From Viridibacillus arenosi (GTDB taxonomy: Bacteria; Bacillota; Bacilli; Bacillales_A; Planococcaceae): a stretch of DNA of 64,000 bases. The stretch lies in assembly GCF_001955655.1 (NCBI RefSeq), contig NZ_MSPW01000007.1, forward strand, positions 1 through 64,000, written 5' to 3'. The notes beneath the pieces were generated by a model, which saw only the letters and a list, made by a program, of their open reading frames with translations, made no database searches and had not been told where the DNA came from. Numbering within the stretch: position 1 is the first letter of the stretch; each line of letters starts with the position of its first letter. Below, one piece after another: positions 15,146 through 50,008 of the stretch. Both the position numbers and the translations under genes were made by a program.

Positions 15146-15305
15146 ATACCTCACTTATATATATTATTATTTATTAAAAGATTAATAGATATAGTAGTAG
15201 GGCCTGTGGATTTGTGGATAAGTCCAATTTAACGAATAAAATCAGCCTATCCGTGTGTAGACAGGCTGTGTATAAGTATGTTGTTAACTTTCCGGGTTAT
15301 CCACA
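15146..15305. other. oriC, inner part: DNA unwinding element, DnaA-trios and DnaA boxes
   Basis: Between dnaN and dnaA. Perfect DnaA boxes TTATCCACA at 15297-15305 (plus) and 15213-15221 (minus), TTATACACA at 15267-15275 (minus), and a weaker box 15205-15213. Next to the weak box are a GGCC cluster (15201-15204) and triplets TAA-TAG-ATA-TAG-TAG-TAG (15183-15200), then an AT-rich stretch toward dnaN (15146-15182). This reproduces the B. subtilis basal unwinding system of DnaA boxes, GC cluster and DnaA-trio, which places the melting site at about 15150-15200. Confidence 0.9.
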
Positions 15306-16764: not shown

Positions 16765-17064
16765 TGTGGATAAATGTTATTCTTAGGTGGTGGATAAAAC
16801 TATCCACACATTATCAACAATTGTGGATAACATTTTGCATACACAAATTTATTTACAGAGTAAAACACAATAATCTTATCAAAAAAAACCAGGCAGTTCA
16901 AGATTTTTTCGAAGTTATCCACAAATTGCATAAATATACACAACGAACTTATCCACAACAAGTGAATTTGTGTAGAACCTGTCTATAAGTCTTGTGGATA
17001 ATTTTGAGGGTGTAAAAAAGTGTCCACACTAGTTTTTGAGAGTGAGATAGTAGATTGTGGATAA
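16765..17064. other. oriC, outer part: DnaA-box cluster upstream of dnaA
   Basis: Perfect TTATCCACA boxes at 16765-16773 (minus), 16822-16830 (minus), 16915-16923 (plus), 16949-16957 (plus), 16993-17001 (minus) and 17056-17064 (minus). One-mismatch boxes at 16789-16797, 16800-16808, 16811-16819, 16934-16942 and 16980-16988. With the cluster on the other side of dnaA this makes a bipartite origin, as in B. subtilis. No gene is present between the dnaA start and rpmH. Confidence 0.93.
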
Positions 17065-20047: not shown

Positions 20048-20299
20048 TTGTCCACAATTCTACTTTTCGAGCTTTTATGCTATTATTGTATGTTAGAGAG
20101 TTAGTTCGTTTTCAGGTTATCCACATGTGGATAATTTTTAATTTTTTAGGAGGTATTATCTATGGAGTTCGATACAATTGCGGCTATCTCAACGCCAATG
20201 GGTGAAGGGGCAATTGCCATTGTCCGTTTGAGTGGAGATGATGCTGTTGCCATTGCAGATCGTGTGTTTCATGCACCGAATCGGAAAAAGTTATCCACA
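20048..20299. promoter_or_regulatory. DnaA-box cluster at the mnmE start, with a head-to-head box pair
   Basis: TTATCCACATGTGGATAA (20117-20134) is two perfect DnaA boxes fused head to head, 27 bases before the mnmE ATG. A one-mismatch box TTGTCCACA lies at 20048-20056 and a perfect box TTATCCACA inside mnmE at 20291-20299. The position suggests that DnaA could regulate mnmE or be titrated here. Confidence 0.75.
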
Positions 20300-47838: not shown

Positions 47839-47888
47839 TTCGAAAGATATAGTATAACTATCAGGTAAACAACGGAGGGATGATACGT

Positions 47889-49106
47889 ATGGGATATTAC
47901 GATAACATTAACGGAGAAGATAGAAGTCGTTCTAAAAAACGAAGTAGCAGAGCAGGCTATTTTTTTAGTGGTCTAATTGGTGTTATTATTGGTGCTTTAC
48001 TTGTTTGGCTGCTGATGCCATCGATGGTAGATCGTTTACCAAATGGTTCAGGAAGTTCGGGAGCCATAGGTACAAGCAATAACACAACGAAGCAAGTGAC
48101 AACTGAGGTAACAACAGATGTTACAGGAGCAGTTGAAAAAGTTGCAGGAGCGGTTGTCGGTATTACAAATATCCAAGAATCTGCACAAGATTTTTGGAGC
48201 CAAGCTGAACCAACTACCCAAGAAGCCGGAAGTGGTTCAGGAGTCATCTATAAAAAAGATGGTGACACAGCGTATATTGTAACAAATAATCATGTTGTTG
48301 AAGGCGCAAAACAATTAGAAGTAACATTAGCAGATGGTTCTAAAGCAGAAGCAAAACTAATCGGTAGTGACGTTTGGACAGATTTAGCAGTCATTTCAAT
48401 TTCAAGTAAGAAGGTTAACACAGTTGCTACATTTGGTAACTCTGAGGTTTTAAAACAAGGAGAGACAGTTATTGCAATTGGTAACCCATTAGGTCTTGAT
48501 TTTTCAGGTTCTGTTACAACAGGGGTTGTTTCGGGTAAGGATCGTACAGTACCAGTGGATTTAAACTCTGATGGTGAGCCAGATTGGCAAGCAGAGGTAT
48601 TACAAACAGATGCAGCTATTAACCCAGGTAACAGTGGTGGTGCACTTGTAAACCTTGCAGGTGAAGTGATAGGCATAAACTCAATGAAAATTTCGGAATC
48701 CACTGTTGAAGGTTTAGGATTTGCAATTCCTATTAACTCAGCAATTCCTGTTATCAATGAATTACAAAAATCAGGTAAAGTAGAAAGACCATCAATGGGC
48801 GTATCATTAATCGATCTAACAAATGTACCTGCATTCCATCAAACTCGTACATTAAAATTACCTGCTGAAATAACTGAAGGTATTGTTATTAGTAGCGTCG
48901 TTAAAAATTCATCAGCCGAAAAAGCAGGTTTAGAACAATATGATGTCATTGTTGAAATTGATGGCCAAAAAGTAGACAATTCAATTGATCTTCGAAAACA
49001 TTTATACAATGAAAAAAAGGTCGGCGATAAATTAAAAGTTAAAGCATACAGAGGTGGGGAAATAATTGAGAAGGAACTAACTTTAACGAATAGTCCAACA
49101 AGTTAA
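47889..49106 (+). CDS. htrA: Membrane-anchored serine protease HtrA
   Basis: 405 aa quality-control protease acting outside the membrane. A cytoplasmic basic N-terminus, one membrane segment (about 22-45), a Ser/Thr-rich linker, a trypsin-like domain with catalytic His (TNNHVV, ~135), Asp (TDLAVI, ~165) and Ser (GNSGGAL, ~248), and one C-terminal PDZ domain (VSLIDLTNV... VIVEIDGQKVDNSIDLRKHLY). The ATG at 47889 is ten bases after GGAGG; an ATG three codons upstream abuts the site. Its position after the wal operon is conserved. Confidence 0.95.
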   Translation: MGYYDNINGEDRSRSKKRSSRAGYFFSGLIGVIIGALLVWLLMPSMVDRLPNGSGSSGAIGTSNNTTKQVTTEVTTDVTGAVEKVAGAVVGITNIQESAQDFWSQAEPTTQEAGSGSGVIYKKDGDTAYIVTNNHVVEGAKQLEVTLADGSKAEAKLIGSDVWTDLAVISISSKKVNTVATFGNSEVLKQGETVIAIGNPLGLDFSGSVTTGVVSGKDRTVPVDLNSDGEPDWQAEVLQTDAAINPGNSGGALVNLAGEVIGINSMKISESTVEGLGFAIPINSAIPVINELQKSGKVERPSMGVSLIDLTNVPAFHQTRTLKLPAEITEGIVISSVVKNSSAEKAGLEQYDVIVEIDGQKVDNSIDLRKHLYNEKKVGDKLKVKAYRGGEIIEKELTLTNSPTS

Positions 49107-49146
49107 TCTTGTGGATAATGGAAATTAATTACTAACGTATCAACAG

Positions 49147-49192
49147 GCGAGTAGGAAACGTGAAGACACGACTTTCCTACTCGCTTTTCCTT
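49147..49192 (+). terminator. Terminator after htrA
   Basis: GCGAGTAGGAAA (49147-49158) pairs perfectly with TTTCCTACTCGC (49173-49184); the inner CGTG/CACG extends the stem; a T-rich stretch follows. Confidence 0.93.
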
Positions 49193-49273
49193 TGCTACAA
49201 TAGACTGTGGATAACATTGACCGAATTGTGTATAAGTTTGCGGAAATTTTGAAAATTGAAAGGATGAAATATT

Positions 49274-49438
49274 TTGAAAATATACAGCTGTGAAACGCAT
49301 ATAGGACACGCTTTAGACATGTTCGTGGCAGAACAAAAAGAGGTTCCGTTATTTGAAATGGCGACAGAGGAAGAAAAGTTATCCACAAGTTGTACTTATT
49401 GTGAAGAGGCAGCAACATATGTTGTGGCGAACGAATGA
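49274..49438 (+). CDS. CxxH/CxxC small protein
   Basis: 54 aa from the TTG at 49274 after GAAAGGATG. The sequence begins MKIYSCETHIGHALDMFV and ends CTYCEEAATYVVANE: CETH and CTYC are the paired CxxH/CxxC motifs of a small Bacillales family found next to rlmH, probably a metal-binding protein. Function unknown. A DnaA box lies inside the coding sequence. Confidence 0.88.
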   Translation: MKIYSCETHIGHALDMFVAEQKEVPLFEMATEEEKLSTSCTYCEEAATYVVANE

Positions 49439-49528
49439 ACGCACACAAGATATTGATGTAGCTTGTGGATATGTGTATAACTTCTGTGGATAACGTGTTT
49501 GTAAATTAAATGTGAAGGTGGATAACTT

Positions 49529-50008
49529 GTGAATATAGCGATTATTACCGTTGGGAAATTAAAAGAAAAATACTTAAAGATGGGGATTGAGGAGTATGTC
49601 AAGCGCCTTGGCGCCTATGCAAAAATCGATCTTATTGAAGTCCCAGACGAAAAAGCACCCGAACAATTAAGCGAAGCTGAAATGGAAATTGTTAAGAAAA
49701 AAGAAGGCGAACGCATTTTAGCTAAAATTTCACCTGACACTCACGTCATCGCTCTTGCTATCAACGGTAAAATGAAAACATCCGAAGAAATGTCCAAAGA
49801 CATCGAATCACTTATGACATATGGTAAAAGTAAAATTACTTTCGTCATCGGTGGCTCGCTTGGATTACATGACGATGTTCTGAAGCGCGCAAACGAAAAG
49901 CAATCATTCGGTAAAATGACATTACCTCATCAGTTGATGAAATTAGTGTTGGTAGAACAGATATATAGAAGTTTTAGGATTATGAAGGGTGAACCGTATC
50001 ATAAGTAA
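49529..50008 (+). CDS. rlmH: 23S rRNA pseudouridine-1915 N3-methyltransferase RlmH
   Basis: 159 aa SPOUT methyltransferase that modifies helix 69 of 23S rRNA. SAM-binding knot residues are in [13 protein letters not shown] and [31 protein letters not shown]. The start is GTG at 49529 after GAAGGTGG. The last 20 coding bases, ending in the stop codon, are repeated downstream: this is the homologue of staphylococcal orfX, the SCC insertion gene. The reading frame is intact. Confidence 0.97.
49989..50008 (+). repeat. att-like site 1, in the rlmH 3' end
   Basis: GTGAACCGTATCATAAGTAA, encoding the C-terminal EPYHK and stop of rlmH. The identity with copy 2 extends one base to the left. Confidence 0.85.

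Follow-up and report, generated by a model that had tools for sequence, protein, structure and literature searches.

A conserved DnaA-box cluster upstream of rlmH in Viridibacillus arenosi, a likely counterpart of the Bacillus subtilis yyzF/yydA cluster

The interval between htrA and rlmH of Viridibacillus arenosi contains a dense cluster of DnaA boxes. Most probably (about 0.8 on our estimate), it is an outside-oriC DnaA-box cluster (DBC) orthologous to that of yyzF/yydA in Bacillus subtilis, at which bound DnaA would repress the CxxH-rlmH operon and some of the cell's DnaA would in addition be sequestered. We infer DnaA binding, repression, and titration in V. arenosi by carrying them over from B. 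subtilis. The window, i.e., the whole stretch of DNA that was analysed, comprises 64,000 nucleotides.

Pattern matching identified six boxes matching the consensus TTATNCACA and two one-mismatch boxes between 49110 and 49525, as an earlier note on this DNA had described, and seven of the eight lie on the minus strand. The tightest span holding all six consensus boxes is 384 bp. In the list, distances are given from the rlmH start, and column identities are means over 40 Planococcaceae.

47880-49106: htrA, upstream neighbour of the cluster
49110..49118, minus strand: DnaA box TTATCCACA, -419, directly after the htrA stop; column identity 0.89
49206..49214, minus strand: DnaA box TTATCCACA, -323, over the predicted transcription start; column identity 0.97
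49227..49235, minus strand: DnaA box TTATACACA, -302, 21 bp from the 49206 box; column identity 0.91
49274..49438, plus strand: small CxxH/CxxC gene, TIGR04129 (61.1 bits, cut-off 35)
49379..49387, plus strand: DnaA box TTATCCACA, -150, within the CxxH gene, in frame Leu-Ser-Thr; column identity 0.98
49464..49472, minus strand: one-mismatch DnaA box ATATCCACA, -65, opening a three-box array; column identity 0.97
49472..49480, minus strand: DnaA box TTATACACA, -57; column identity 0.89
49485..49493, minus strand: DnaA box TTATCCACA, -44; column identity 0.92
49517..49525, minus strand: one-mismatch TTATCCACC of ambiguous role, overlapping the rlmH ribosome-binding site; column identity 0.92
49529..50008, plus strand: rlmH (yydA), 23S rRNA pseudouridine methyltransferase, GTG start

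Whole-window shuffles gave an expectation of 0.033 TTATNCACA boxes per 416 bp, which agrees with the earlier claim that chance would supply far fewer than one perfect box, and the probability of finding six or more is ~1.7e-12. Four or more perfect TTATCCACA boxes in 384 bp have a probability of ~2e-11, calculated from their genome-wide count of 55. As a pattern search returned 65 matches to the reversed-pattern control, perfect boxes show no genome-wide excess, and it is their clustering alone that is unusual. The one-mismatch box at 49464 is conserved as well as the perfect boxes. The 49517 sequence overlaps the presumed rlmH Shine-Dalgarno sequence (AAGGTGGATAAC...GTG), so its conservation is not creditable to DnaA alone and its status as a DnaA box is uncertain. 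The earlier count of eight holds for the matches, with the last of them confounded with the ribosome-binding site.

Sequences around rlmH were compared from Planococcaceae, the window's family, in which the search covered 19 genera, from other Bacilli, and from 80 named genome contigs. Among 74 Planococcaceae genomes, which are related species and not independent events, the 500 bp upstream of rlmH carry 2-7 consensus boxes, on average 5.26; shuffles give 0.05, and rlmH itself has none. The boxes occupy nearly fixed positions in most genera of the family, at about -420, -323, -302, -150 (plus strand), -57, and -44 from rlmH, and are displaced together where the gap between the CxxH gene and rlmH is longer. 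In the alignment of 40 genomes, column identity is 0.89-0.98 within the boxes, compared with 0.63 in other intergenic and 0.74 in other coding columns. Boxes are also common upstream of rlmH in Bacillaceae (mean of 3.5 in the named Bacillaceae and allies), and clusters were found there in Exiguobacterium, Listeria, and Staphylococcus, the last being our family f9, whose RlmH is near-identical to S. aureus structures. No cluster was found upstream of rlmH in the sampled Paenibacillaceae-like groups (f3 and f21), Brevibacillus, or halobacilli. The conservation proposed in the earlier note as a check on its claim thus extends across much of Bacillales.

The earlier note had also placed one box within the small CxxH/CxxC gene, and the 49379 box indeed lies in the TIGR04129 gene, where its codons in the reading frame are TTA TCC ACA (Leu-Ser-Thr), immediately ahead of the CxxC motif. 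Among 112 distinct CxxH genes with Leu-Ser-Thr, the tripeptide is encoded by TTATCCACA in 93, by TTATCAACA in 15, and by TTGTCCACA in 4, while rlmH codon usage predicts the perfect-box codons in 1.2%. AAG encodes the Lys ahead of the tripeptide in 93% (33% expected), a preference which fits the G preceding several boxes at the rlmH locus. Codon changes were counted on an rlmH-based tree, which handles kinship for the coding box only. For the Thr codon of the box, synonymous changes number 0 across 116 genes, and for the Leu codon 7 across 114 genes; the Ser codon of the box changes 12 times across 115 genes, nearly all of these being switches between TCC and TCA. Other four- and six-fold codons in the CxxH gene mostly show 22-52 changes, and one other Ser column is slow too (5 in 60). 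Leu-Ser-Thr and the box are lost together, for example, in Kurthia, which suggests that the DNA site is kept rather than the protein. The codon counts show that the coding box is constrained as DNA. Together with the nearly fixed spacing, the maintenance of a box in coding sequence points to the layout being under strong selection. At 20291, mnmE also has an in-frame Leu-Ser-Thr box; it was considered as a parallel and rejected, as outside the window's genus it occurs in only one genome, from another genus.

Binding of B. subtilis DnaA in vitro maps a strong region, peak no. 8, that lies upstream of yydA, spans yyzF, and contains 7 sites bound by ATP-DnaA with a Kd of 0.16 uM (PMC4447404), which matches the earlier statement that a DnaA-box cluster adjoins the orthologous yydA. 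The htrA-CxxH (TIGR04129)-rlmH position and the similar boxes of two close B. subtilis relatives identify the V. arenosi cluster as the orthologue of this known one. B. mojavensis and B. halotolerans have degenerate boxes and three perfect ones, located at -354, -320, and, on the plus strand within the small gene, -140. By its position, its TIGR04129 match, and the sequences of these relatives, the small CxxH gene appears to be the yyzF orthologue. Several TTATNCACA boxes, the position of a known cluster, and boxes kept in relatives all speak for a DBC.

Three further elements of the locus were delineated by folding and alignment.

49147..49184, plus strand: presumed htrA terminator, a strong stem-loop followed by TTTTCCTTT (folding)
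49193..49201, plus strand: extended -10-like element TGCTACAAT, presumed CxxH-rlmH promoter (40-genome alignment)
49443..49455, plus strand: 13-bp element ACACAANATNTWG, downstream of the CxxH stop and ahead of the three-box array

The stem-loop has a folding energy of -25.1 kcal/mol (z -5.75), equalled in 0 of 200 shuffles. The -10-like element has the consensus TG-N-TAMAAT in most of the 40 aligned genomes and is missing from most Sporosarcina, and no convincing -35 element was found with it. The promoter/terminator scanner called neither the htrA terminator nor the CxxH-rlmH promoter; given this and the Sporosarcina genomes without the motif, the promoter is only a predicted one. Judged from the position of TGCTACAAT, the transcript of the CxxH-rlmH operon would start within the 49206 box, so that repression would be no less direct a function than titration. 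The 13-bp element is conserved across Planococcaceae, and we take it to resemble most of an NrdR box with the closing half missing.

In the proposed mechanism, DnaA would bind the seven boxes cooperatively; for the B. subtilis orthologue, binding has been shown in vitro. With the 49206 and 49227 boxes on the predicted transcription start and the array at 49464-49493 directly ahead of rlmH, bound DnaA would repress the operon. Lying only 32 kb from oriC, the cluster would be copied shortly after initiation and, being of high affinity, could retain part of the DnaA pool, jointly with the mnmE, ywlC, and gcp/ydiF clusters, so that re-initiation would be delayed.

Within the B. subtilis set of trmE/mnmE, ywlC, gcp/ydiF, yqeG/sda, and ywcI/vpr, the first three clusters are shared, each occurring in this genome and in most of 30 Planococcaceae genomes, whereas yqeG of V. 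arenosi has no TTATNCACA box within ~1.5 kb.

20117..20134: sister cluster upstream of mnmE (trmE), two boxes back to back in inverted orientation, TTATCCACA/TGTGGATAA, present in the majority of the 30 family genomes

The gcp (tsaD)-ydiF interval contains 2-7 boxes in most of the 30 family genomes. The ywlC boxes lie around and within the ywlC start (locus L223, 2411-2514), in the first codons in most family genomes, which is another likely overlap of box and coding sequence. Elsewhere in the genome, two perfect and several near boxes occur on a 45-kb contig (locus L220, 2318-2416; genome G000, contig C9:18817-18915) within a 4.5-kb stretch without an ORF of at least 80 aa, possibly a plasmid origin or a decayed element. 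Perfect boxes also occur in pairs at two further loci, one close to a catalase gene (L221, 2139-2253) and one between aminotransferase and nitrilase-like genes (L222, 2299-2355), neither of them a known cluster of B. subtilis.

The clusters lie at very different genes, that of gcp/ydiF in a convergent intergenic region, which should hold no promoter, as would suit a passive DnaA sink whose overlap with the operon is incidental. In B. subtilis, deletion of the six outside clusters leads to early initiation (PMC5295017), strongly only when all six are gone (PMC5295017; PMC13220808), and the yydA/yyzF cluster is presumed to be one of the six removed in this Delta-6 strain. The chromosome of E. 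coli, which has an oriC-proximal box-rich zone, also titrates DnaA. However, the nearly fixed positions across the family and the box in coding sequence exceed the needs of a sink, since its boxes could move freely, and DnaA appears to repress the orthologous yyzF-yydD operon directly (PMC4447404). We therefore regard a role in titration only as rather unlikely. It should not be assumed, and titration may be minor, because B. subtilis tolerates ten-fold overproduction of DnaA without over-initiation (PMC13220808). The same tolerance, the Delta-6 effect that is strong only when complete, and the reported direct repression leave the earlier description of a DnaA-titrating locus that tunes initiation standing as to the conserved orthologous cluster and only partly supported as to titration and tuning.

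It is similarly doubtful that DnaA does no more than couple expression of the CxxH gene and rlmH to the state of replication, with a negligible effect on initiation. The boxes on the presumed start site and directly before rlmH would favor such control, as would the apparent repression in B. subtilis, where a review counts yyzF-yydD among the sets under direct DnaA regulation (PMC8203912). The early initiation of the Delta-6 strain (PMC5295017) argues against this, as do Staphylococcus and Listeria, in which the boxes persist upstream of rlmH and a search did not find the CxxH gene. Combined repression and titration remains our preferred reading. Published deletion experiments, as reviews describe them, do not separate titration from promoter control, and the fixed layout offers a handle to do so.

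A more speculative reading, to which we give little weight, is that DnaA forms a complex of required geometry by looping the start-site pair, the coding box, and the array over the CxxH gene, with a role beyond that of a DnaA sink. If so, the complex could change the state of DnaA or report replication status to a ribosome-modification gene, and the need for a box in the DNA would be the sole reason why the CxxH gene retains Leu-Ser-Thr.

The box density of the cluster is comparable to that of oriC, which was located as follows.

16765..17064: oriC part 1, upstream of dnaA, six perfect boxes
15213..15305: oriC part 2, between dnaA and dnaN, three boxes

GC skew changes sign only once, at ~14-17 kb, and is positive onward through 49 kb. 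Since dnaA, dnaN, the two box clusters, and this only skew switch coincide, oriC is placed at 15-17 kb. The rlmH cluster lies 32 kb from the boxes upstream of dnaA, which bears out the distance given earlier. It is highly improbable that the rlmH cluster is, or derives from, a second origin of replication, as it has neither a skew switch nor an AT-rich unwinding stretch adjoining the boxes (local GC 28-43%). Chance or compositional artefact is practically negligible given probabilities of ~1e-11 to 1e-12 and at least two boxes in each of the 74 family genomes.

The SCC-like att site mentioned in the earlier note is present at the far end of rlmH. The rlmH 3'-end sequence GAACCGTATCATAAGTAA occurs four times on the plus strand (49991, 50850, 54847, and 55778), three copies being exact and one having one mismatch, with spacings of 859, 3997, and 931 bp. 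Their arrangement suggests three SCC-like cassettes in tandem at rlmH; the second of these carries a sensor kinase gene and a DUF71-like gene. No functional link between the att site and the box cluster was found, and the att site was rejected as part of the system, as it lies at the opposite end of rlmH and the boxes are upstream of rlmH in all sampled family genomes.

These observations indicate that the DnaA sinks of B. subtilis are not confined to Bacillus, as at least four clusters are kept across Planococcaceae and the rlmH boxes reach Staphylococcus and Listeria. The E. coli datA locus and oriC-proximal box-rich zone have high-affinity boxes near oriC that lower free or active DnaA, as is proposed for the rlmH cluster. 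In contrast, datA acts via DnaA-ATP hydrolysis and IHF, and B. subtilis has neither IHF nor a known datA-like locus (PMC13220808); no homology is claimed. The closest known system is the B. subtilis yydA/yyzF cluster, which likewise lies upstream of yydA/rlmH across the small gene, has a similar number of sites (7), and, as seen in close B. subtilis relatives, a perfect box within the small gene. The V. arenosi cluster differs in being nearer oriC (32 kb versus ~100 kb, judged from the peak coordinate), in having six perfect boxes versus three in B. mojavensis and B. halotolerans, and in its exact spacing. To what is known of the B. subtilis cluster, our analysis adds the nearly fixed positions across a family, the taxonomic reach, and the hold at the DNA level on the coding box.
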